DNA from: Acidobacteriota bacterium
Lineage (GTDB): Bacteria; Acidobacteriota; Thermoanaerobaculia; Multivoradales; JBCCEF01
Direction: 5' to 3'
Assembly (NCBI GenBank): GCA_039028635.1
Contig: JBCCHV010000036.1
Span: forward strand, 1 to 64,000
DNA length: 64,000 nt
A model generated the notes under the pieces. The model had not been told where the DNA came from. It worked only from the letters and a program-made list of their open reading frames with translations, and made no database searches. Below, piece by piece: positions 26,784 through 53,658 of this stretch. Every line of letters starts with the position of its first letter. The stretch's first letter is position 1. Made by a program: the position numbers and the translations under genes.

Positions 26784-27154
26784 AACTAGCCACCGTCACC
26801 GACGCCGACATCTCGCAACGAGTTCGTCGCGCCGTCGCCGCCGCGGAGGACCGCAAGGCCTTCGAGCTGCGCGTTCTCAACCTCTCCCGCGTCAGCGGCT
26901 TCACCGATTTCTTCGTCATCTGCAGCGGTACCAGTGACCGCCAGGTGCAGGCCATCGCGGAGGCCATCCAACGCGACCTACGGGCCTTCGGGGCACGGCC
27001 GCTGCACGTCGAAGGCCAGCGCTCCGGGAGCTGGGTTCTGCTCGATTTCGGAGCCTTCGTGGTCCACGTCTTCGATCAGGAAACGCGCGCCTTCTACGGC
27101 TTGGAGAACCTCTGGGCGGACGCGCCCGAAGTGACCGCCGACTTCACCTCTTGA
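26780..27154 (+). CDS. rsfS: Ribosomal silencing factor RsfS
   Basis: This 124-residue protein is a full-length RsfS/iojap: DRKAFELRVLNLSRVSGFTDFFVICSGTSDRQVQAIAEAI, then GSWVLLDFGAFVVHVFDQETRAFYGLENLW. It binds L14 and blocks subunit joining when nutrients are short. ATGA overlaps join it to both nadD and the downstream regulator. Confidence 0.95.
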   Translation: MKLATVTDADISQRVRRAVAAAEDRKAFELRVLNLSRVSGFTDFFVICSGTSDRQVQAIAEAIQRDLRAFGARPLHVEGQRSGSWVLLDFGAFVVHVFDQETRAFYGLENLWADAPEVTADFTS

Positions 27155-28059
27155 CCACCGACCTGGCGCGCCTGCTGGCGCTCTCGCCCGGCCTCGCGAA
27201 AGCCCTCAAGGGTGTGCAGCGGGCTGCCCGGGTGGATGCGCCGGTGTTGCTCCTGGGAGAGGCCGGCAGCGGCCGGTCGACCCTCGCCCGCGCTCTGCAC
27301 TTCGCCGGCGACCGCGCCCTCGGACCGCTTGTCGAGCTCGATCCCGGCACGGTGCCGGTGGAGCTTTTCGAGAGCGATCTCTTCGGCTACCGCAGCGGCG
27401 CCTTCACCGGTGCCGAGCGCGATCGCCTGGGCAAGGTGGCGCGGGCCGAGGGTGGGACGCTGATCCTCGATCACCTCGAAGCGCTGCCGCTGCAGGTGCA
27501 GCCGAAGCTCCTGCGCTTGTTGGCGGAGAGGCGCTATGCCCCCCTCGGCGGCGCCGAGGTCGAGTGCGACGTCCGCTTCGTAGCGATTGCCGGTGGCGAT
27601 TTGCGCCAGCGGGTCGAAGCCGGTGCCTTCCGCGGCGATCTGTTCTTCCGCCTCGGGGTGCTGGCCTTCGAGATACCGCCTCTGCGCCAGAGGCGAGACG
27701 AGATCCTGCAGATCGCCGATGGGGTGCTGGCGGATCTCGCCGAGCGGCTGGGGCGACCCAAGCCCCGGCTGGCCTCGGCCACTGCCGATTGGATGGAACG
27801 CCATGGCTGGCCGGGCAATCTCACCGAGCTGCGGGCGATCCTCGAGCGCGGCCTGATCCTGTCGCGCCACGACCCTTTGGAAATTCCGCCGCCGGCGAAT
27901 CTCACCAGCCCGGTGCCGCGGGCATTGGTCGAAGTCGAGCGGGAAGAAATCCTGCGGGCTCTCGCCTACACTCGGGGGCGTCAGGGTAAAGCGGCGGAGC
28001 TGCTGGGGGTGAGCCGGAAAACGCTGTGGGAGAAGCGCAAGCGCCACGGCATTCCGTAG
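27151..28059 (+). CDS. Sigma-54 activator-like AAA+ protein with degenerate Walker motifs
   Basis: This 302-residue protein starts at a TTG overlapping the rsfS stop. It has no receiver or other sensory domain: the AAA+ domain starts near residue 15 and a Fis-type HTH occupies about 262-300 (GRQGKAAELLGVSRKTLWEKRKRHG). GAFTGA (83-88) and the arginine-finger region FRGDLFFRL are intact. Walker A reads GEAGSGRST with Arg for the essential Lys (R42). Walker B reads LILDHLE with His for Glu (H108). Sensor I reads AGG rather than ATN. This predicts weak or no ATP hydrolysis. It is the fifth downstream gene of the rplU operon, an unusual place for such a regulator. Confidence 0.8.
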   Translation: MTTDLARLLALSPGLAKALKGVQRAARVDAPVLLLGEAGSGRSTLARALHFAGDRALGPLVELDPGTVPVELFESDLFGYRSGAFTGAERDRLGKVARAEGGTLILDHLEALPLQVQPKLLRLLAERRYAPLGGAEVECDVRFVAIAGGDLRQRVEAGAFRGDLFFRLGVLAFEIPPLRQRRDEILQIADGVLADLAERLGRPKPRLASATADWMERHGWPGNLTELRAILERGLILSRHDPLEIPPPANLTSPVPRALVEVEREEILRALAYTRGRQGKAAELLGVSRKTLWEKRKRHGIP

Positions 28060-28982: not shown

Positions 28983-30533
28983 ATGAGCAGCGGCATGACC
29001 AGGCCAGATGGCCCGATTTCTGGAGCGGTGCATCCCGCGGGCGCGCCTCGCGTAGAAAAGAGCATGGTGACTCGCTTCGTCTTTCCCGGGGGTAGGTTCG
29101 ACCGCCTCAGCCTCGAGCTCGAGGTCGAGGGGCGCCGCCACCGTCTCGAACCGAAGCATGGCGAGACCCTGGCGCTGCTTCTCGAGCGCGCCGGGGAAGT
29201 GGTCACCAAGGAAGAGCTCCTGCAGAGGGTGTGGGCCGGTCGCCACGTCACCGACGATGCTCTGGTGGTGACGATCTACAAGTTGCGCCGGGTGTTGGCG
29301 GATCGGGCACGCTCGCCACGCTACATCGAGACCATCGCCAAACGCGGCTATCGCTGGATTGCGGCGCCGGTGAGCGCGGCGCCGGCGCCGACGGAATCGA
29401 CCACACCGGCGCCCCCGGGGACGGTCCGTCGCTGGCTGGCGATGCTGGCGGTACCTCTGCTGGCGGCGATTCTCTGGATCGCCTGGCCGGTTAGCGATCC
29501 GGTGTCGACCGATGACGAGCTCGAGGGAGCGCGCGCTCTCCTCGCCGAGCGTTCGCCGTCGGCCCTCGAACGGGCCCTCGAGATCCTCGATTGGCACTTG
29601 CTCGAGGAGCCGGGCGATGGCGAGGCCCAGGCGCTGCGGGCGCAGGCCCTGGTGTTCATCGCCGAAGGCAATCCGGTGCGTCGTCCGGAGCTGATCGCAG
29701 CGGCGCGCAAGGCGACCCGTCGGGCCCTGGTCGAGAGCCCGACCTCGCCCCAAGCGAATCTCGCCGAGGGCCTGCTGGCGCTGTTCCACGAGCGCGATCC
29801 GGAGCGCGCCGGCTTGGCCTTGCAGCGCAGCTTGCGACGAACGCCGAAGGATCCGCAGTTGCTGGCCGCGTCCTCTTGGTGGTTGTCCGTCCAGGGGCGC
29901 CACGATGCCGCCCTCGGCGCGGCGCGGCGCTCGCTGATGCTCGACCCTTCGGGTGCGACCGGTTGGTCGGACCTCGCCTATTTGGCGGCGGCGGCGAATC
30001 AGCCGAATCAATCGCTGCGCGCCGCCGAGATCGCCTTGGGCCTGGACCCGGCCTCGAACGCGGCCGCCTGGGAGCGGGTGCGGGCCCTGAGCGCCCTGGG
30101 GCGGTCGCAGGAGGGCATCGCCGACTACCTCGAGTATCTTGCCGGGGCCGGTGTCGACCCGGCATCCCTCGCGGCTCTCGAAGGGGCGGCGTCGCGCGGC
30201 GGTTGGCCGGCCTTTCACCGCCTCATGGTGAATGCCTTTCCGGAGGACCGCCTGCTGGTTCAGAGGGCCGTGATCGCGCTACGCCGGGACGATCGCGATG
30301 GTGCCCTCGGGCTGCTCACCCGAGCGGTCGATCGCGGCGACTGGGAAACCCTCTGGATGGCCTCCTTGCCGGAGCTTCGTCCACTGCGAGGCCATCCGCG
30401 CTTCGCGGCGCTGCAAATCCGCCTCGGGTTGACCCCCGGTCGCGAGCTGCCGCCTTGGGGGTTCGCCGGTCCCGCCGTGTCCCTCGATCCCTTCCGGTCT
30501 TTGCATCAGCCGTGGGAGAGAAGCGGCATCTGA
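28983..30533 (+). CDS. Membrane-bound winged-helix regulator with TPR domain (CadC/ToxR-like topology)
   Basis: This 516-residue protein has an OmpR/PhoB-type winged helix at about 32-128 (LSLELEVEGRRHRLEPKHGETLALLLERAG, LLQRVWAGRHVTDDALVVTIYKLRR, IETIAKRGYRW). A Pro/Ala linker is followed by a single membrane segment at 151-169. The remaining 340 residues form TPR-like helical pairs. The cytoplasmic DNA-binding and outside TPR arrangement is that of CadC-like one-component sensors. An alternative start at 29064 (MVTRFVF) would remove only the weakly conserved N-terminus. The target is unknown; the divergent gene at 28916 is the obvious candidate. Confidence 0.8.
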   Translation: MSSGMTRPDGPISGAVHPAGAPRVEKSMVTRFVFPGGRFDRLSLELEVEGRRHRLEPKHGETLALLLERAGEVVTKEELLQRVWAGRHVTDDALVVTIYKLRRVLADRARSPRYIETIAKRGYRWIAAPVSAAPAPTESTTPAPPGTVRRWLAMLAVPLLAAILWIAWPVSDPVSTDDELEGARALLAERSPSALERALEILDWHLLEEPGDGEAQALRAQALVFIAEGNPVRRPELIAAARKATRRALVESPTSPQANLAEGLLALFHERDPERAGLALQRSLRRTPKDPQLLAASSWWLSVQGRHDAALGAARRSLMLDPSGATGWSDLAYLAAAANQPNQSLRAAEIALGLDPASNAAAWERVRALSALGRSQEGIADYLEYLAGAGVDPASLAALEGAASRGGWPAFHRLMVNAFPEDRLLVQRAVIALRRDDRDGALGLLTRAVDRGDWETLWMASLPELRPLRGHPRFAALQIRLGLTPGRELPPWGFAGPAVSLDPFRSLHQPWERSGI

Positions 30534-30541
30534 CCCTCCGG

Positions 30542-30569
30542 TCGCAACACTTCGCAACAATTCTTGACG
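30542..30569 (+). promoter_or_regulatory. Direct-repeat operator plus -35 box upstream of the Spy-like/two-component operon
   Basis: TCGCAACA (30542-30549) repeats at 30552-30559, a 10-bp helical period typical of OmpR-family regulators. TTGACG (30564-30569) follows immediately as a -35 box. The -10 position 17 bp on (CACGCT) is poor, consistent with activator dependence. The ORF-encoded response regulator two genes on is the likely ligand. Confidence 0.5.
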
Positions 30570-30668
30570 CGCCTTCACGCTGGCCACACGCTGGCGCAAG
30601 GTGTCCCCGCCAAGCTGCGCTCCACATTGGTGGCCATGGTGGCCAGCGATGAGTCACAGGAGCAAGCG

Positions 30669-31112
30669 ATGTCGAAACGATTTTTCTGGATAGCGATTTT
30701 GATGGTCGCAGCCGCCCTCTGCAGCGGGGGGTGGCTGTTCGCCGGGGCTCACGGCCAGGACTCCCACTCTCCCGAGAGCGTGCTGGCGGAGCTCGACCTG
30801 AATCCCGAGCAGATGCGCCAGATCCATGCCATCCACGGGATGGTCAGCAGCCACTGGAACGGGGCCCATCTGCATGGTCAGCATCTCCAGGCCTTGGTCC
30901 GCCACGCCGCCGATGGCGAGCTGAGCCGCGAGGAGATTCGGCAGACCGTCGATGCCGGAGTCGAGCAGATGCGCCAGCGCGGATACGCCCTGGCCGACGA
31001 GATGACGGCCCTTCTCGAGAGCCTCGACTCGCACCAGTACACGCTGCTGATGGAGCACCTCGAAAAGGCCGCGACCTTCATGAGCCAGAAGCACGAGCGC
31101 GGGCATCACTGA
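30669..31112 (+). CDS. Spy/CpxP-like periplasmic stress protein
   Basis: This 147-residue protein has a signal peptide or N-terminal anchor (4-28). The rest is all helix: LAELDLNPEQMRQIHAIHGMV (an LTxxQ-like motif), then long amphipathic helices and a His-rich C-terminus (HERGHH). It also has His-rich stretches (HWNGAHLHGQHLQ) that could bind metal. The size and motif place it with Spy/CpxP chaperones that sense envelope stress. It is followed by an OmpR-type regulator and histidine kinase 56 bp on, mirroring cpxP-cpxRA. CAGGAG precedes the chosen ATG. Confidence 0.72.
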   Translation: MSKRFFWIAILMVAAALCSGGWLFAGAHGQDSHSPESVLAELDLNPEQMRQIHAIHGMVSSHWNGAHLHGQHLQALVRHAADGELSREEIRQTVDAGVEQMRQRGYALADEMTALLESLDSHQYTLLMEHLEKAATFMSQKHERGHH

Positions 31113-31168
31113 CCCTTGCCGGGTCGGCAGGCAGAACGACCGCGGGCCCGTGCCATGATGCGGTGATC

Positions 31169-31864
31169 ATGATTCGGCTCTTGATGATCGACGATGACGA
31201 GAAGCTGGTCGCCCTGACGCGCGATTACCTCGCGCCTCAGGGTTTTCTCGTCGAGGCGGCCCACGATGGCCTCGCCGGCCTCGAGGTGGCGCTGCTCGAG
31301 CCGCCGGCGCTGGTCGTCCTCGATCTCATGCTTCCCGGCCTCGATGGCCTCGAAGTGTGCCGGCGATTGCGCCGGGAAAGCCGCGTCCCGGTACTCATGC
31401 TGACCGCCCGGGGGGACGAGACGGACCGCATCGTGGGGCTGGAGATGGGAGCCGACGACTACCTCCCCAAGCCCTTCAACCCGCGCGAGCTGCTGGCGCG
31501 GGTGAAGGCCATCCTGAGGCGCACGGACGGTGCCGTGGAGCGAGAGGAAGACTGCCTCGAGGTCGGCCCACTGCGTCTGCTGGCGGCTTCCCGTCGGGTC
31601 TTTCTCGCCCAACGCGAGGTCGAGCTGACGACGGCCGAGTTCGACCTCTTGCGGGCCTTGATGGAAGGGGCGGGCCGGGTGCAGAGCCGGGATCGCCTTT
31701 TGGAGCGCATCCACGGTCCCGGCTGGGCCGCCTACGACCGCTCCGTCGACGTCCACATCAGCCGCTTGCGCCAAAAGCTCGGCGATGATCCGCGGCGGCC
31801 GCGCTGGCTCAAGACCGTGCGCGGCGCCGGCTACCTGTTGGCGCGGCCGGCGGCGGCATCGTGA
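31169..31864 (+). CDS. OmpR-family response regulator (CpxR-like)
   Basis: This 231-residue protein has a receiver domain at 1-115 with D9/D10 acidic pocket residues (MIDDDE), the phospho-acceptor D52 (VLDLMLPG), T in MLTARG and K in YLPKPF. The C-terminal winged helix (about 130-228) ends DRSVDVHISRLRQKLGDDPRRPRWLKTVRGAGYLLA. The stop overlaps the kinase start (GTGA). With the Spy-like gene upstream it probably regulates envelope stress and its own operon. Confidence 0.92.
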   Translation: MIRLLMIDDDEKLVALTRDYLAPQGFLVEAAHDGLAGLEVALLEPPALVVLDLMLPGLDGLEVCRRLRRESRVPVLMLTARGDETDRIVGLEMGADDYLPKPFNPRELLARVKAILRRTDGAVEREEDCLEVGPLRLLAASRRVFLAQREVELTTAEFDLLRALMEGAGRVQSRDRLLERIHGPGWAAYDRSVDVHISRLRQKLGDDPRRPRWLKTVRGAGYLLARPAAAS

Positions 31865-33183
31865 GGACTCTGTTTCTCGCCATCAAGATCGGCCTGCTCT
31901 TCGCCCTGGTCATGGCCCTCGTGCTGAGCGGCGTCCTGTTCTTGTTCTTCCATGTCTTCGGGCACGATCCCCACGACCTCCATGGCGCCATGGCGAGGGT
32001 TCAGGCGCAGGCCGGCGTGGAGACGGCGCACGCCATCGAGGCGCTCCTCGATCGTGGCCGCGGGCTCGATGGCGAGGAGATCGCCATCGTGCTGACGCGC
32101 CGGGGACATCGGCTTCATCGCGAGGACTCGGGCCAGTACCAGCGACCGTCCTTTCTCGAGGTCGACGGGCGCCGCTGCCTCCTGGTGGGTGATGGTGGTG
32201 GGCAGATCCTCATCCCGATCGATCGCGCCGGCCGGACCGTCGCCCATGTCGCCGTCGCGGCCGGGCCGAGTCCCCAGATGCTTCATCGCGCCTTCCGTCG
32301 CGGTCTTCTGAACATCTCCCTGGCGTCGCTGATCGGGATCGCGGCGGTGGCGATCTATCTGTCGAGCCCCCTGCGCCGCATGCGGCGGTCGATGGATCGC
32401 ATCGCCGCCGGCGATCTCGATCATCAGGTGACGGTGCGCGGACGCGACGAGGTCGCCGCCATGGGCGACAGCTTCAATGCCATGGCGGATCGCATTCGGC
32501 AGATGGTCCGCGGCCAAAAGGAGATGCTGGCCGGGGTCTCCCACGAGCTGCGCTCACCGCTGGCCCGCATGAAGGTGGCTCTCGAGCTGTTGCGCGAGGA
32601 GGCGCCGTCCGAACGCCTGGAGGATCTCGAGGCAGAGGTCGACGCCATCAACGATCTGGTCGGCGAGGTGCTGCTGGCGAGTCGCTTCGACCTCGACGCC
32701 GTACCGCTCGAAACGCAGCGCCTCGAGCTGGGCCCGGCGGTCGAGGGCGCCTGGCACGAGGCGGCGATGGGGGCGGAGTTCGAGCTGGTCCTCGATCTCG
32801 CCGCCGAGGCGATGGCCGTGTCCGGCGATGCTGCTCTGGTGACGCGAGTCTTGCGCAACCTGTTCCAGAACGCCCGCCGCTACGCCGGTGGCGGTGCGGT
32901 GGTGGTGAGCAGCCGGCTCTGGCAAGGCAGGGTCGAGCTGCTGGTCAGCGATCACGGTCCCGGAGTGCCGGCGGATCAGCGGCAGCGGTTGTTCGAGCCC
33001 TTCTTCCGCGGCGATCGATCGCGTCGTCCCCGTTCCGGCGCCGTCGGCCTCGGATTGATGATCGTGCGGCGCGCCGTCGAAGCCCATGGCGGCCGGGTGC
33101 GGGCCGAGGAAAGCGCTGCCGGCGGCCTTGCCATTAGCTTCGATTTGCCGGCGCCGACGGCAGCCGGGGAATCGGTCCGGTAG
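31861..33183 (+). CDS. Sensor histidine kinase (CpxA-like, HAMP-HisKA-HATPase)
   Basis: This 440-residue protein starts at GTG, overlapping the regulator stop. The first membrane segment is at about 8-32, the periplasmic domain at 35-140 and the second membrane segment at about 148-166. HAMP contains SPLRRMRRSMDRIAAGDL. HisKA has H228 in GVSHELRSPLARM. The ATPase domain has N-box NLFQNARRYAG, G1 DHGPGVP and G2 GAVGLGLMIV. The organisation and gene order match CpxA. The ligand or stress sensed is not predictable, but the adjacent Spy-like protein is the likely periplasmic modulator. Confidence 0.92.
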   Translation: MRTLFLAIKIGLLFALVMALVLSGVLFLFFHVFGHDPHDLHGAMARVQAQAGVETAHAIEALLDRGRGLDGEEIAIVLTRRGHRLHREDSGQYQRPSFLEVDGRRCLLVGDGGGQILIPIDRAGRTVAHVAVAAGPSPQMLHRAFRRGLLNISLASLIGIAAVAIYLSSPLRRMRRSMDRIAAGDLDHQVTVRGRDEVAAMGDSFNAMADRIRQMVRGQKEMLAGVSHELRSPLARMKVALELLREEAPSERLEDLEAEVDAINDLVGEVLLASRFDLDAVPLETQRLELGPAVEGAWHEAAMGAEFELVLDLAAEAMAVSGDAALVTRVLRNLFQNARRYAGGGAVVVSSRLWQGRVELLVSDHGPGVPADQRQRLFEPFFRGDRSRRPRSGAVGLGLMIVRRAVEAHGGRVRAEESAAGGLAISFDLPAPTAAGESVR

Positions 33184-34637: not shown

Positions 34638-37600
34638 ATGAATGTCTCGAGTTCGGTTGGAAATGGTGGAGGGTTTAGGGGTTGGCCGCAAGGGGGCCGG
34701 ACCTTGCAGGTGCTGACGCTGTGGGTGCTGATCCTGGGGGCCGGCAGCGTGGTTGCCCAACCGCAGCCTTCGGCTTCGACGATTGTGGTGCAGCTCTATG
34801 AACCGGTAGTCGCCGAGGTGCGCAGCGGGGAGGTGGTGGACGTCGGTGAGCTGCCCAGCTACGGGTGGCAATCGGAGCTGAGCTTCGCGGTGATCAACCG
34901 CGTCGGAGCCGGCGAGCGCAGCCAGGGCTCAGCGGCGGCCGAGGCGGTCTCCGACTTCAAGGTCACCGACGTGCGCGGACCGATCACCTTCGACCTGGAG
35001 GCGCCGACGGAGCGAGTGGACCTCGAGCCGGCGCGCGGACTGATGCTCGAGGCGACGGTGGGTAGCGCGACGCGCCAAGGCCTGGCGCCGCTCGACGAGT
35101 TCCGCGTCGACCTGTCCTTCATGACCGATCGGGGGGAGTTTCATTTTTCCATCGTCGGGCTGGCACCGAAGGCCGCTGCCGCCGACTACTCGGTTTCCTT
35201 CGAGGGCTTCGGTCCGGGTGCGATTGACCGGCTGAGATTTCACCAGGCGGAGCTGCCCACCACCCGCACCTATACGGCGGTGCTCGAGAATCGCGGCGCT
35301 GAAGATCTCACCCTCCCCTGTGGATTCGGCAATTCCCTGAGGACCTCGGGAACCGCCGATGGCGTGGATGCGACGTCAACGCTCTTTCCCTGTAACACGG
35401 CGATCGCTCCCGGACAGCGGGACCGAATCACGATCCCGGTGAAATTCTCTCGCCGTCTGACGGCCGGGTTTTTTGACCTCGAGGTCGTTGTCCGGCCAAA
35501 CGGATTGCCCACCCGGGTGGCTCGTCTGCGCTTGCAGATCGAGGTCGAGGAAGTCAACAGGCTCGACGTGTTCTTCACCGACTCGTCCGGCCGCCGGGTT
35601 TCGAACTTTGGAACCGAGCAGCTCAACTCTGACGAGCTTCCGAGGGTGTTGGACTACGAGCTCGTCATTCGCAACCTCGGTGTCTCTTCGGATCTTTCGA
35701 TCCCTTGTTCGGGCATCACCTACTCGGAGCAGTCGCCGCGCGGCGTTTCCGGCCGACTCTTCGAGCGTTGCCCTTTGAATATCCGTCCGGGGCGAGAAGA
35801 GAGCATGGATTTCGAGCTGACTCTCGGCGGCGGGACTGAAACCGGCCGATTCGATGGGTCCGTGGCGGTGAGCCCGGAGGGCGGCGGTTTGCGCCTTGGA
35901 TCGCTGCGGGGACGCATCGAGCTCGAGGCCGCCTGCACCGCCGACTGCCCGGGACCGAACATCGAAATTCGGGACGCCAGCGGTCAGACCGGTGGCCTGT
36001 TCGAGATTTTTCACGATGGCGAGCCGGAGATCATCGCCGAGTTCGAGATCAAGAACAAAGGCACCGAAGATCTTCTCCTCGACTCGGCCGCAGCCATCGA
36101 GCTGACCGGCGATGATCGCTTCAGTATCGATCGGGTTCCCAACACCCTCTTGATTCGGCCGGATCCCCAGCTGGCCTCGACCTTCGCGATCAAGTTCGAT
36201 GCTCGGGGTGCCGATCCCAACGCCGAGTTCCGAGCCTTCGTGGAGGTGCGGAGCAATGCCGTCAATCCACGGGAGGGCAAGTTCGAGCTGCGAGTGGCGG
36301 AGTTCGACACACCCTACGTGCAGATCAAGGTCGATGGGGTCGAGCTCAACTCGCCGACCGCCGATCTCGGAACGATTCAGTCGCTACCTCGAAGCGTTCG
36401 CTTCACCCTCACCGAAGACCCGGGGCCTCCGAGCGGTCCCGAGATTTCCGACTTCAACGCAAGGATTTCGCGTGGCCAGGGCTTGATCTGGTCTTGGACC
36501 TCTCCCCGACCACCCATCGGAAATGAGTCCCAGTACTTTACTTCGCTCTACGAGTTCGAGGGTGCCTTGCGGGCAGATCACACGGGAGCCGACCTCAACG
36601 GTTCATTCCGCCTCGAGATCGACTTCTACCTCGATTTTCCGGGACTCTTCATCGGCAACATTCCGGCGAATGCCAGGATCGCCTTTGGTGTGGAAGGCGT
36701 GGTCGAAGAGGTCTACAACCCCAGCGAGGACCCCGATGTTTCCTGTACCGAGCCCTCGTTCGAAACCGAGTGTTTGCCGCGATATTGCCAGGACCTCGAC
36801 ACCTATTTCGAAGGGCTGACTTTACCCGGGGCCGCCTGTCTGTTGGCCCACTACGGTGCCTTCCTGAGTTGTCCTTCCGCAGCGCTCGACTTGAGGGCCT
36901 TCAAGGGATGTGTCGTCTCCATTCTCGGAGCTGCTCTTTGCGACGTCCTTCTGACTGACGATGTCTTGGAAGACCTTCGCGAGATCGTCGATCGATTCAA
37001 GGCCTGTCATTGTTCGAACTACGGCGAGATCTGCCCGGCGAATCTACCCGCCGTGCACGCCGTGGTTCACCACGTGGCTCCCGGCGAGCACGCCATCCTC
37101 GAGGCCTCGTGCTTTGGCGATGCTCCGTTCTCGAACATGAGTGAGCGAGTCACCGTGAGCGATAACGCCTTCTTTCCCGTGCTGGATTGTCCGACCGGGT
37201 TCACGGTCCACGTTCGATTGAGTGACTTGACCAACACCGCAGGGCAGACTCGGTCCTGCGATGCCACCGAGAGCTCCGATGGAACGACCCTCGACGCCAC
37301 GGTCTCCGGGCGGATGGGGCCGGGTGATTTTCTCGCCGAGTTCAACTGCCAGTGTCTCGATCCGGAGGGCTGTGGACAGTCCTTCACCCTGACCGGCAGG
37401 GCCGAAGGGCTCGAGGATGGCGACACGGTGGGGGTTGGCCTCTACTTGCCGGAGCTCGATTTGGCGACCTCGACCATCGTCTCCGGCAATGGCGGCTTCG
37501 AGTTCCCCGAGGCGATGCCGGCCGCCAACCTCTACGAGGTGCGGATCACCAATCAGGGCGACTATCCGCACTGTTTCGTCACCCCGACCCGTAGCGACAT

Positions 37601-40600
37601 CTTGGGGGATCGACCGAGCCTCGAGGTGATTCGGCTGGAGTGCGACTCGATCGCTCCCAACGTCCGCATCGTTTCGCCGGTCGAAGGGGCCGTGGTGCCG
37701 AGAGATTCGAGCGGCCGAGTCCTGGTCGAGGTGGCGGCCGGTGATGCCGTGGGATTGGAAGCCGTCGATCTCGTCGAGTTCACGGATGCCGGTGAGACGC
37801 TTATCGGTCGGCAACGGACGGCGCCCTATCGATTCAGTGTCGGCCTCGAAGTCGGGCCTCACACGGTGATGGCGCGAGTCACCAGCGACCGCGGAATCGT
37901 GCGCGAATCGGAACCGGTCTCGTTCTCGGTGGAAACGGCCCTGGGGTGCGCCGATGGCGACGAGGAGGCGCCCCGGATCGTTCTGCAACAGCCCGTCGAT
38001 GGCCAGCGGCTGGTATCCGATGCCAACGGGCGAGTTCGCTTGACCGCCGGAGTGTCCGATCCCTCCGGAGTGAAGAACGCCAAGTTCTTCGTCGATGGCC
38101 GGCGGGTGGCGGTGGACGCCTCCTATCCGTACAGCGTCTTCTTCGAGGTAGGGAGCGATGCTGCTCCGTCCTTTCACGAGCTTTTCGTGCGCGCCCGCGA
38201 CCGCTGTGGCAATGAGCGCGATTCCGAGGTCATCCGTTTCCAGGTGGTGGGGCGCGACGACGCCTGCGCCGAGGACTCGACTCCGCCGGAGGTGCGCCTG
38301 ATTCGGCCGATGGAGGGGGCGACCCTGGTCCAGAACGCCGGCGGCAGGGTCACCCTGCGCGGGCAGGCGAATGACGAGAGCGGAATCGAGGAGGTGAGCT
38401 TCGTGGTCTTGGGTGTCGAGCTCGGGAGGGTCGACAGCCCGCCCTACTCGCTGGCTTTCCCGCTACTGGAGGGGACCCAGCGCATCATCCTGCGGGCGAC
38501 CGATCGCTGTGCCAACTCGGCGATTACCCCGGAGGTGGAGTTTGCCGTCGAGGCCGGTGAACCGGTGGACTGCGCCTCCGATGTCGTGCTGCCGGTGGTG
38601 CGGTTGATCGAGCCCTTCGAGGGCGAGATCGTCACCATTCGAGATGGCAATCGTGTTCGCATTCGAGCTTCGGCCGAGGATGCCAGCGGCATTGATCAGG
38701 TCACGTTCACCGTCGATCAGGGGAGCGAGCAGCGAGTCGCCATCGATGACGATGCCCCTTACGGCTACAACTGGCCGATCAACCGACCAGGGGTTCACCG
38801 GGTCGTCGCCCTGGCGAGCGATCGGTGCGGCCGAGCCAGCTCGACGCCACCGCTTCGGTTCATCGTTCCCGATGACGGCTCATCGCCCATCGTCATCACT
38901 CACCCCAGCGATGGCAGCGATCTGCTGCCGGAGCAGGAAGTGCCGGTGGTGGTGGCGGCGGACGATCCCGACGCGCTCGAGCTCGTCGAGCTTTTCGTCG
39001 ACGGGCAGATGCTCGCCGACGATCCGGACGATCCCTTCGCCTGGCTGTGGACCCCGGCCTGGGGCGACCACACGGTGCAGGCGCGGGCGGTGACCACGCT
39101 GGGCAACGAGCACTGGTCGCCGATGGTCTCCGTTTCGGCCGGCTGTGGCGCCGATCAGGAGAGCCCGGAGGTGGTGGTCACACAACCGGCAGCGGGCGAC
39201 TCGGTGGTCGCCAACGAGCATGGGCGCTTCACTCTGCGCGCCGCTGCCAGCGACGACAGCACCATCGATCGCGTCGAGTTCTGGGTCGATGGCGAGTTGA
39301 AGAAGACCGACTCGACGGCACCCTACGGCTACAACTGGCCGGCCCCCCTGGGCGGCCACACGGTTCAGGCGCGGGCCTACGACTCGTGCGAGCGCAACGC
39401 CACGTCGCTGGCGGTGTCCTTCACGGTGGAAGAGGCGGGCTCCGGCGAGTGTGGTGCCGAGGCCGGGCCGCCGACCGTGGCCGTCACCCTGCCGGCGGCG
39501 CAGAGCGAGGTCGAGCTCTCGGATACGGGCAGAGTCCTGCTGCGCGCCGCCGCCAGCGACGAGAGCGGTGTCGGTCGGGTGGAGTTCTGGGTCGACGGCG
39601 TGCACGTCTGGACCGATTCGACGGCGCCCTTCGCCCATCACTGGCTCGCGACCCTCGGACCTCACCTGGTGAAGGCGAGGGCTTTCGATCGTTGCGATGA
39701 ATTCGCCTGGTCTTCGGAAGTGCGCTTCGTGGCCACCGAGCCCGGGTCCTGTTCCACCGATTCGACCTCGCCGGAAGTGGTGGTCACATTGCCACTGGTC
39801 GGGCAAGAGCTCGAACCTTCGCCGACCGGCCGGGTGCTGTTGCGGGCCGAGGCCTCTGATATGGCCGGCATAGATCGGGTGGAGTTTTGGGTCGACGGCA
39901 GCCGGGTGTGGACCGACTTCACCCATCCCTTTGCGCACAACTGGCTCGCGACGCCGGGGGCTCACTCGGTACGCGCCAAGGCCTTCGATGCCTGCGATCA
40001 GGAAAGGCTGTCGCCCGCGGTGACCTTCACGGTGGCCGGTGGTGACTCCTGCAGCGGCGACGTCCTCGGCCCGGACAGCGATGTCACCCTGCCGCTGGCA
40101 GGCCAAACTGTCGAACCGTCGGCCACCGGTCGGGTGCTGCTTCGTGCCGAGGCGAGCGACGTTTCCGGCGTCGACCGGGTGGAGTTCTGGGTCGATGGTG
40201 TGGCGGTTTGGAGCGACGCGACGGCGCCCTATGCCCACAACTGGTTGTCGACGCCGGGACCGCACTCGCTGCAGGTGAAAGCCTTCGACGCCTGCGACAA
40301 CTCCGAGCTCTCGCCGGCGGTGACCTTCACCGTCTCGGATCCGGACCCCTGCAGCGGCGATGACACGGCTCCGACGGTTTCGGTGACCGAGCCGGCAGCG
40401 CACCAGAGCCTCGAGCCGAGCCCGACCGGCCGCATCCTGATGCGGGCCGCGGCGGACGACGCCGGGGGCATCGACCGGGTGGAGTTCTGGGTCGATGGGG
40501 CGCCGGTGTGGACCGACGTCACGGCACCTTATGGGCACAACTGGCTGGCGACGCCGGGCTCGCACTCGGTGCAGGCCAAGGCCTTCGACACCTGCGGCAA

Positions 40601-41240
40601 TGAGCGCCTGTCGGTGGCGGTGCCGATCACCGTGACGGATCCCGATCCGTGCTCGGCGGATGGCACGCAGCCGACGGTGGCGGTCACCTTGCCGGTGGCG
40701 AATGCGGTGCTCGAGCCGTCGGCGACGGGGCGGGTCCTGTTCCGAGCCGACGCCGGCGACGCCGGCGGCATCGACCGAGTGGAGTTCTGGGTCGACGGTC
40801 AGGTGGTGTGGAGTGACGACACCCATCCCTACGCCCACAACTGGCTGGCGACGGCAGGGGCTCACTCGCTTCGAGCGAAGGCCTTCGACGCCTGTGGCAA
40901 TGAGCGCCTATCGGCGGCGGTGCCGTTCTCGGTCGAGGTACCAGACCCCTGTACCGACGACAACACTCAGCCCCAGGTGAGCATCACGGTGCCGCTGCCC
41001 GATGCGGTGCTCGAGCCCTCGCCGACGGGCCGGGTGCTGTTCCGGGCCTCGGCCTCCGATGCTGGCGGTATCGATCGGGTGGAGTTCTATGTCGACGGCA
41101 CGCTGGTGCGGACTGACACGGACGCCCCCTACGCCTACAACTGGCTCGCTGCCTCCGGAAGCCACGTCGTGCGGGCCAAGGCCTTCGACGCGTGCGGCAA
41201 CCCCAGGTGGTCCACCGAGGTGCCTTTCTCGGTGCCGTAG
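34638..41240 (+). CDS. Giant secreted protein with tandem Ig-like repeats
   Basis: This 2200-residue protein has a signal peptide with a long n-region (cleavage near residue 41, VVAQ). Residues about 50-690 hold several Ig-like folds, including a choice-of-anchor-D-like module near 450-560. Residues about 695-800 form a Cys-rich region. From about 1000 to the end there are twelve Ig-like repeats with the core GRVLLRAxASDxxGIDRVEFWVDG...HNWLATPGxHxVxAKAFDxC. Each begins with a Cys and has a second in AFDxCxN, suggesting one disulfide per domain. The last six units are exactly 300 bp each. No sorting tail is seen. It resembles large adhesins or surface stalk proteins. It has a sigma-54 promoter and faces the kinase/activator operon, whose product probably controls it. 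Confidence 0.85.
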   Translation: MNVSSSVGNGGGFRGWPQGGRTLQVLTLWVLILGAGSVVAQPQPSASTIVVQLYEPVVAEVRSGEVVDVGELPSYGWQSELSFAVINRVGAGERSQGSAAAEAVSDFKVTDVRGPITFDLEAPTERVDLEPARGLMLEATVGSATRQGLAPLDEFRVDLSFMTDRGEFHFSIVGLAPKAAAADYSVSFEGFGPGAIDRLRFHQAELPTTRTYTAVLENRGAEDLTLPCGFGNSLRTSGTADGVDATSTLFPCNTAIAPGQRDRITIPVKFSRRLTAGFFDLEVVVRPNGLPTRVARLRLQIEVEEVNRLDVFFTDSSGRRVSNFGTEQLNSDELPRVLDYELVIRNLGVSSDLSIPCSGITYSEQSPRGVSGRLFERCPLNIRPGREESMDFELTLGGGTETGRFDGSVAVSPEGGGLRLGSLRGRIELEAACTADCPGPNIEIRDASGQTGGLFEIFHDGEPEIIAEFEIKNKGTEDLLLDSAAAIELTGDDRFSIDRVPNTLLIRPDPQLASTFAIKFDARGADPNAEFRAFVEVRSNAVNPREGKFELRVAEFDTPYVQIKVDGVELNSPTADLGTIQSLPRSVRFTLTEDPGPPSGPEISDFNARISRGQGLIWSWTSPRPPIGNESQYFTSLYEFEGALRADHTGADLNGSFRLEIDFYLDFPGLFIGNIPANARIAFGVEGVVEEVYNPSEDPDVSCTEPSFETECLPRYCQDLDTYFEGLTLPGAACLLAHYGAFLSCPSAALDLRAFKGCVVSILGAALCDVLLTDDVLEDLREIVDRFKACHCSNYGEICPANLPAVHAVVHHVAPGEHAILEASCFGDAPFSNMSERVTVSDNAFFPVLDCPTGFTVHVRLSDLTNTAGQTRSCDATESSDGTTLDATVSGRMGPGDFLAEFNCQCLDPEGCGQSFTLTGRAEGLEDGDTVGVGLYLPELDLATSTIVSGNGGFEFPEAMPAANLYEVRITNQGDYPHCFVTPTRSDILGDRPSLEVIRLECDSIAPNVRIVSPVEGAVVPRDSSGRVLVEVAAGDAVGLEAVDLVEFTDAGETLIGRQRTAPYRFSVGLEVGPHTVMARVTSDRGIVRESEPVSFSVETALGCADGDEEAPRIVLQQPVDGQRLVSDANGRVRLTAGVSDPSGVKNAKFFVDGRRVAVDASYPYSVFFEVGSDAAPSFHELFVRARDRCGNERDSEVIRFQVVGRDDACAEDSTPPEVRLIRPMEGATLVQNAGGRVTLRGQANDESGIEEVSFVVLGVELGRVDSPPYSLAFPLLEGTQRIILRATDRCANSAITPEVEFAVEAGEPVDCASDVVLPVVRLIEPFEGEIVTIRDGNRVRIRASAEDASGIDQVTFTVDQGSEQRVAIDDDAPYGYNWPINRPGVHRVVALASDRCGRASSTPPLRFIVPDDGSSPIVITHPSDGSDLLPEQEVPVVVAADDPDALELVELFVDGQMLADDPDDPFAWLWTPAWGDHTVQARAVTTLGNEHWSPMVSVSAGCGADQESPEVVVTQPAAGDSVVANEHGRFTLRAAASDDSTIDRVEFWVDGELKKTDSTAPYGYNWPAPLGGHTVQARAYDSCERNATSLAVSFTVEEAGSGECGAEAGPPTVAVTLPAAQSEVELSDTGRVLLRAAASDESGVGRVEFWVDGVHVWTDSTAPFAHHWLATLGPHLVKARAFDRCDEFAWSSEVRFVATEPGSCSTDSTSPEVVVTLPLVGQELEPSPTGRVLLRAEASDMAGIDRVEFWVDGSRVWTDFTHPFAHNWLATPGAHSVRAKAFDACDQERLSPAVTFTVAGGDSCSGDVLGPDSDVTLPLAGQTVEPSATGRVLLRAEASDVSGVDRVEFWVDGVAVWSDATAPYAHNWLSTPGPHSLQVKAFDACDNSELSPAVTFTVSDPDPCSGDDTAPTVSVTEPAAHQSLEPSPTGRILMRAAADDAGGIDRVEFWVDGAPVWTDVTAPYGHNWLATPGSHSVQAKAFDTCGNERLSVAVPITVTDPDPCSADGTQPTVAVTLPVANAVLEPSATGRVLFRADAGDAGGIDRVEFWVDGQVVWSDDTHPYAHNWLATAGAHSLRAKAFDACGNERLSAAVPFSVEVPDPCTDDNTQPQVSITVPLPDAVLEPSPTGRVLFRASASDAGGIDRVEFYVDGTLVRTDTDAPYAYNWLAASGSHVVRAKAFDACGNPRWSTEVPFSVP
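39450..41237 (+). repeat. Six near-identical 300-bp tandem coding repeats
   Basis: The opening Cys codon of successive units falls at 39450, 39750, 40050, 40350, 40650 and 40950, an exact 300-bp (100-residue) period. The preceding unit is 306 bp (39144) and older units vary. Nucleotide identity is high between neighbours, pointing to recent unequal crossing-over or gene conversion. Confidence 0.9.
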
Positions 41241-53224: not shown

Positions 53225-53259
53225 TGTAGTTATTTATTTTAATATGCTATTGTTAGTAT
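53225..53259 (+). promoter_or_regulatory. AT-rich leader upstream of the small Cys-rich gene
   Basis: About 35 bp here are almost pure A/T in a GC-rich genome, ending at the ATG (53260). No Shine-Dalgarno is present. TTGTAG and TAATAT/TATGCT hexamers could be promoter parts, and the AT-rich RNA would suit S1-dependent or near-leaderless initiation. Confidence 0.45.
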
Positions 53260-53658
53260 ATGAAAAATATTTACAATCCGAAGAAACTCTTCCCCCTCTC
53301 GATCGTGTTGATCGGAGCTCTGTGCTTTGGGCTCTCGCCGGCGTTGGCCTCGGAGGGCCCGCCAGTCAGCTTTGACGAAGATCTTGGGACTCTCGCCCAG
53401 GCCGCCCCATCGCCCGAAGAGACGCCGTCCGCTGATGCGGCCGGCGAAAATCTCGGCCTCTTCACGCCGTCGGCAAGTCCGGCGAGCGGCAGCGGTTGCT
53501 GCACCCCTCAGGAGGAAATCCAGGGGTTACGAATCTGCCTGTTTGGAATTGGTCCGCTCGGCGATTTCTGTCCCACCTGCAATCCGGATGGGAGCTGTGG
53601 CGGCTATTGCGTGAGGCTCCCCCTCGAACTCGAGGGCCCGGTGGCGACCTGCTCCTAG
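53260..53658 (+). CDS. Small secreted Cys-rich protein of unknown function
   Basis: This 132-residue protein has a signal peptide (about 1-31, ending ALA). A Pro/Glu/Ala-rich linker (32-75) is followed by a compact C-terminal domain with nine Cys: GCCTPQ, GLRICLF, DFCPTC, GSCGGYC and a final ATCS. It looks like a precursor with a secreted disulfide-rich module. I do not recognise a family. Codon use near the start (MKNIYNPKK) is AT-rich compared with the rest. A 12-bp hairpin follows. Confidence 0.65.
   Translation: MKNIYNPKKLFPLSIVLIGALCFGLSPALASEGPPVSFDEDLGTLAQAAPSPEETPSADAAGENLGLFTPSASPASGSGCCTPQEEIQGLRICLFGIGPLGDFCPTCNPDGSCGGYCVRLPLELEGPVATCS

Follow-up and report, generated by a model that had tools for sequence, protein, structure and literature searches.

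Within the window (the whole 64-kb stretch of DNA that was analyzed), an exact direct repeat, TCGCAACA-CT-TCGCAACA (30542-30559), precedes an operon for a Spy/CpxP-like protein, a response regulator, and a sensor histidine kinase (Table 1). The locus raises the question of which protein reads this repeat, to what effect, and how the site relates to the Cpx box of Escherichia coli. The 10-bp period of the repeat is exact, as the first-pass annotation had described.

Operon and promoter array

The noted Spy-regulator-kinase operon is upheld, and the Response_reg and Trans_reg_C domains of the regulator place it in the OmpR family. The kinase gene overlaps the regulator gene by 4 bp. Both proteins score under their NCBIfam cut-offs and are therefore called CpxR-like and CpxA/RstB-like, not CpxR and CpxA: the regulator reaches 190.2 bits with NF008199 (CpxR, cut-off 341), and the kinase reaches 179.4 bits with NF007007 (CpxA, cut-off 486) and 188 bits with the RstB model (cut-off 478).

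Table 1. Coordinates of the operon, its upstream neighbor, and the promoter array in the window
Feature	Coordinates	Strand	Remarks
Winged-helix (Trans_reg_C) + TPR protein, HilA/CadC-like domain plan	28983-30533		Upstream of operon
Half-site 1, CGCAACA	30543-30549	+	Same register kept in four relatives
Half-site 2, CGCAACA	30553-30559	+	Exact repeat; same register kept in four relatives
Half-site 3, CTTGACG (includes TTGACG)	30563-30569	+	Best motif match together with half-site 4
Half-site 4, CTTCACG	30573-30579	+	Best motif match together with half-site 3
Core promoter and leader, 89 bp	30580-30668	+	85-95 bp in five genomes
Spy/CpxP-like protein, 147 aa	30669-31112	+	Two LTxxQ-like boxes (LNPEQ, LDSHQ)
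OmpR-family response regulator, CpxR-like	31169-31864	+	Response_reg + Trans_reg_C; tree
Sensor histidine kinase, HAMP-HisKA-HATPase	31861-33183	+	Scores under the cut-offs of both closest NCBIfam models (RstB, CpxA)

The Spy-like protein scores 14.9 bits with the Pfam family LTXXQ (PF07813), below the cut-off of 24.3 (E = 0.046), and all five members of its alignment match the family at E ≤ 1 (best 2.8e-8). A profile built for it matched in 37 of 148 genomes at E ≤ 0.001 and in 9 of 396 at E ≤ 1e-6 (class and phylum searches), with E < 1e-50 in five genomes only. The predicted structure is helical (pLDDT 81). In structure comparisons, CpxP (3itf, Z 7.0 over 108 residues) and Spy (6owy, Z 6.1) stand amid unrelated helical bundles with equal or higher Z. 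Foldseek returned no match for the model at E ≤ 0.001 and 81 at E ≤ 10, with CpxP 3itf at rank 27, and neither Spy nor CpxP was among the matches of the sequence profile against solved structures. These Foldseek and profile results were not taken to prove Spy identity. In two related loci the Spy-like proteins (L004, 2269-2823; L005, 2223-2837) carry His-rich C-terminal repeats (GHGADH, GHHGSG), a composition that suggests metal binding.

The annotated repeat turned out to be half of a longer array. Its two copies stand, and they are followed by two units that had been overlooked, which gives four 7-bp units at 10-bp steps from 30543 to 30579 (CGCAACA, CGCAACA, CTTGACG, CTTCACG). The direct repeat with a 10-bp period that characterizes a CpxR-type box is thus present in the array. 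The upstream winged-helix/TPR gene ends 8 bases before the repeat; because it stops at 30533, the operon promoter is expected between 30533 and 30668, barring co-transcription.

Conservation of the phased array

On the 64-kb scale the window repeat alone is within chance, as three exact 8-mers recur at a distance of 10 in the window and the 18-mer, when up to 3 mismatches are allowed, is matched once against 0.45 expected. It is striking through its conservation in relatives, and it is counted as beyond chance because the array is conserved and phased there. A regulator search of 59 genomes identified four besides the own genome with a protein at 64-73% identity (next best 53%), and in all four (L002-L005) a Spy-like gene lies directly upstream of the regulator gene. 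In the 160 bp before the spy ATG, which were taken as the relatives' promoters, units follow each other in the same 10-bp register: GGCAACA, CGAAACA, CGCATCA, and TGCAACA in L002; GGCAACA, CGCAACA, TGCAACA, TGCAGCA, and CGCAACA in L003, where one extra unit keeps the step; CGACACA, CGTAACA, CGTCACG, and TGCAACA in L004; TGAAATA, CGAAACA, CTTCATC, and CGCAACA in L005. The distance from the array end to the spy ATG is 89 bp in the window and 91, 95, 90, and 85 bp in L002 to L005, respectively.

The phasing was also measured without a motif, by summing over the five promoters the best 30-bp self-match of each at lags of 5-30 and comparing the sums with 1000 dinucleotide shuffles. The sum is 86 at lag 10 (shuffles: mean 61.0, maximum 76) and 75 at lag 20 (mean 60.2, maximum 73), values that 0 of 1000 shuffles reach; none of the other lags between 5 and 30 exceeds all shuffles. 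Judging by the ORF lists, the ORFs in front of the operon vary among the five loci. Exact triple arrays in the genomes G016 and G023 are confined to this locus.

Relation to the Cpx box and the TTGACG element

For a wider comparison, species genomes were scanned and the best 80 of 582 relatives kept; 79 were used, as L086 lies on a contig (10,086 bases, number 318) that is apparently the L004 contig. Among the 79 loci, 24 have a Spy-like ORF near the regulator gene by HMM (E ≤ 0.05), 12 of them co-directional and 12 divergent. Eight of the 24 had served as seeds of the Spy HMM. Excluded were L155 and L163, in which the ORF runs antisense over the regulator, and L153 and L126, in which it is too distant. 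Together with the five orthologs, these loci give 29 Spy-linked promoters, and an exact 6-mer repeat at a distance of 10 occurs in 17 of them (3.0 expected, maximum 8 in 200 shuffles). Distances 6 and 15 stand out as well, with nine promoters each (a level reached in 1 and 0 of 200 shuffles, respectively), but far behind distance 10.

Expectation-maximization on the 24 distant loci, without the five orthologs and on the spy-gene strand only, yielded the motif CTTTACA-N3-CTTTACA, with a log-likelihood of 166.7 for the 10-bp step against 32.7-86.1 for steps of 8, 9, 11, 12, and 13. Read on the opposite strand, it is the CpxR box GTAAA-N5-GTAAA, the form in which the CpxR motif has been published (PMC12802237). 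In the positive control, CTTTACGTTGTTTTACAC in the E. coli cpxR-cpxP intergenic region scores 17.6 bits and is directed toward cpxP; E. coli spy reaches 2.7 bits in gene direction and 8.8 bits on the other strand. Some of the 24 score weakly even in-sample (L087 3.0, L092 6.7, and L122 8.0 bits). Six of 40 loci with no detected Spy gene reach at least 16 bits on either strand, compared to 17 of the 24 loci used for training (in-sample, one strand), so it is the regulator type, more than Spy, that the motif follows. Over the 24 loci, the mean unit score is also high at offset 31; in five divergent Spy loci (L106, L114, L117, L143, and L149), an extra unit (CTTAACC, CTTAACG, or GTTAACC) lies 31 bp past the first half-site.

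In the held-out window promoter (160 bp), the best match is CTTGACG-N3-CTTCACG (30563-30579) with 11.8 bits, and 0 of 1000 shuffles are as good. These units 3 and 4 rank second among 127,966 two-strand positions in the window; rank 1 (36536, 17.4 bits) lies inside a 2200-aa ORF. Units 1 and 2 score about 0 each, and the array contains no exact GTAAA/TTTAC half-site. The earlier contrast with the E. coli half-site GTAAA is partly right: units 1 and 2 (GCAACA) are clearly diverged, and units 3 and 4 come near to TTTAC-N5-TTTAC, the E. coli box read on the other strand. The four relatives have more GCAACA-like units than the window and score 1.5 (L002), -2.5 (L003), 4.2 (L004), and 4.2 bits (L005), with 218, 360, 23, and 72 of 1000 shuffles as good; because of these poor scores, their link to the Cpx box depends on phasing and position. 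The window array is most likely of the Spy-linked Cpx box kind, with its units 1 and 2 apparently drifted to GCAACA. The gammaproteobacterial locus L122 pairs GGCAACA with CTTTACC (8.0 bits only), so a mixed pair of the GCAACA and CTTTAC types may exist outside this lineage, too.

The kinship of the regulators was assessed in a midpoint-rooted tree of 48 regulator proteins, in which 18 of the 25 lower-identity regulator loci L006-L030 served as paralogs. The five orthologous regulators form one group (99/96), which is nested in a larger one of 30 rows (96/87). The latter also takes in E. coli CpxR, 23 of the 24 Spy-linked regulators, and a single one of the 18 paralogs. The remaining Spy-linked regulator (L103) lies outside with three paralogs, and the next larger group includes 4 of the 18. 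The window regulator carries YDRSVDVHISRLRQKL at the position that we take to be the recognition helix, and loci with a CTTTACA box have an almost identical helix. Since the helices of TTTACA and GCAACA loci are nearly the same, the drift of the half-site is without a simple explanation.

The first-pass annotation had placed TTGACG directly against the repeat and had read it as a -35 box, in the layout of an OmpR-family class II activator site. The hexamer lies at 30564-30569, four bases (ATTC) past the second copy, and fits better as half-site 3; TTGAC is not kept in the four relatives, whose aligned units are CGCATCA, TGCAGCA, CGTCACG, and CTTCATC. The description of the -10 element as weak was fair, as a promoter scan of 30300-31300 returned no sigma-70-like site. 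TTGACG matches the -35 consensus at five of six positions, and one sequence could be half-site and -35 box at once. That it is a true sigma-70 -35 box, with the activator site formed by the two upstream GCAACA copies only, is nevertheless unlikely in view of the empty promoter scan, the aligned units that lack TTGAC, and the fact that units 3 and 4 together match the Cpx box better than any other pair in the promoter. TTGACG belongs to the best Cpx-type pair and its assignment as a -35 box is probably wrong, so that a plausible call is likely corrected here.

Four described systems come closest. In Sinorhizobium meliloti, SMb21562-SMb21561-SMb21560 form an operon for CpxP-like, CpxR-like, and CpxA-like proteins, with the same gene order and co-direction and a CpxR-type site in the upstream promoter region; according to the available part of the source, that site was found through the E. 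coli consensus GTAAA-N5-GTAAA, whereas the window combines two GCAACA with TTGACG and TTCACG (PMC2912261). The cpxP/cpxRA box of E. coli K-12 (L184) likewise is a 10-bp direct repeat oriented toward the Spy/CpxP gene and read by an OmpR-family regulator with a similar recognition helix. In E. coli, however, cpxP is divergent from cpxRA, the half-sites are CTTTACG and TTTTACA, and the CpxR regulon is large, with about 100 promoters according to the accessible text (PMC12802237). For Pseudomonas aeruginosa CpxR, cpxP has GTAAAGCTTGGGTAAA (PMC12802237, PMC5063474), and the SELEX half-site variant GTCAA equals the TTGAC of unit 3 read on the opposite strand (PMC12802237); it differs in its many targets, and no GCAACA half-sites appear in the portions of these sources that were available (PMC12802237, PMC5063474). 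VicR/WalR, in the excerpted source, also binds an OmpR-family direct repeat for which helical phasing matters, but the repeat consists of hexamers of another sequence with a 5-bp spacer, i.e. an 11-bp period (PMC4168254). A literature search of partial coverage found no description of a Spy-linked Cpx box in this lineage, and for a GCAACA direct repeat with a response regulator it gave only a match that seems unrelated from the part of the text available.

Regulation of the operon and its reach

Most probably, the CpxR-like regulator that the operon encodes binds the array and would thereby activate the operon; the array is likely a diverged relative of the E. coli Cpx box. The earlier proposal of a phased OmpR-family site with likely autoregulation gains support from the conserved array, from its position, orientation, and spacing, which are those of Spy-linked Cpx boxes, and from the CpxR-like regulator. 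Envelope stress, a signal suggested by the Spy-like gene with its weak family match in the window, would activate the kinase and so lead to phosphorylation of the regulator. The four head-to-tail half-sites on one helix face could accommodate two tandem regulator dimers. The phosphorylated regulator would bind the array and recruit RNA polymerase to a promoter that is presumably weak alone, and the Spy-like chaperone, the regulator, and the kinase would be raised together.

Another OmpR-family regulator of the same cell could bind the array instead, as half-sites are alike within the family, the genome has 49 scored regulator matches, and a winged-helix regulator gene ends just upstream of the repeat. 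Such cross-regulation is improbable: the array accompanies this operon in the relatives despite differing upstream ORFs, and the Spy-linked box recurs beside the regulator gene in distant phyla. Feedback repression through a site that may overlap the promoter is very improbable, considering that 85-95 bp separate the array from the ATG in all five genomes and that Spy-linked Cpx boxes are known to activate. A chance repeat in intergenic DNA, for which the three recurring 8-mers could be cited, is hardly credible against the conservation and phasing in five promoters and the held-out motif match.

The first-pass annotation had suggested looking for phased copies upstream of other envelope genes, and the predicted copies were not found in this genome. 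TCGCAACA-N2-TCGCAACA with up to 3 mismatches has 25 matches (18 + 7, one of them exact) against 16 (7 + 9) in the backwards control, and by a rough coding test 4 of the 25, window site included, lie outside GC3-rich ORFs of at least 120 aa. GCAACA-N4-GCAACA with up to 1 mismatch has 13 matches (control 9), CTTNAC-N4-CTTNAC 5 (control 4), and a triple KYNACR at 10-bp steps 2 overlapping matches (control 1), both in the window array. The looser patterns are thus not, or not clearly, commoner than in their controls. Nineteen own-genome loci matched by the GCAACA pattern, the CTTNAC pattern, or the exact triple-array search were inspected, including the window site (L213); most others lie in long ORFs, and L173, L174, and L176 are ambiguous. 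One of the three other matches outside such GC3-rich ORFs, TCGCAACACTTCGAAATT (L046:1501-1518; G000:C23:47364-47381), has an ECF-type sigma factor gene on the opposite strand and an unnamed ORF as neighbors, and lies either between them or at a gene start; it is a possible second target of the regulator, albeit a weak lead. Across the 6.28 Mb of the genome, pattern searches thus pointed to no second target that convinces, and weaker sites would escape such patterns; the array perhaps serves its own operon only, for which negative pattern searches are weak evidence.

The type of system is known already; the find is of an ordinary kind and modest novelty, and its new part is the partly diverged half-sites, by which the Spy-linked Cpx box is extended to a lineage where no description was found. 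It is conceivable, though rather doubtful, that the Cpx-type regulator in this lineage now forms a private circuit with one operon, its half-site having moved from TTTACA to GCAACA under an almost constant recognition helix; the window, with two units of each type, would then represent a half-way state. If true, the arrays would provide a natural series for the drift of an OmpR-family binding code. The small promoter family (four to five half-sites) lets half-site drift be weighed against the nearly invariant helix.

Some further features of the window were recorded. The 2200-aa ORF (34638-41240) contains many tandem copies like SPTGRVLLRA-ASDxxGIDRVEFWVDG. An ORF at 27151-28059 contains the stretch ESDLFGYRSGAFTGA, which, by eye, we take to resemble the AAA+ domain of sigma-54 activators. 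At 53228-53270, an AT-rich patch interrupts the GC-rich window and holds several AT-rich motif matches.
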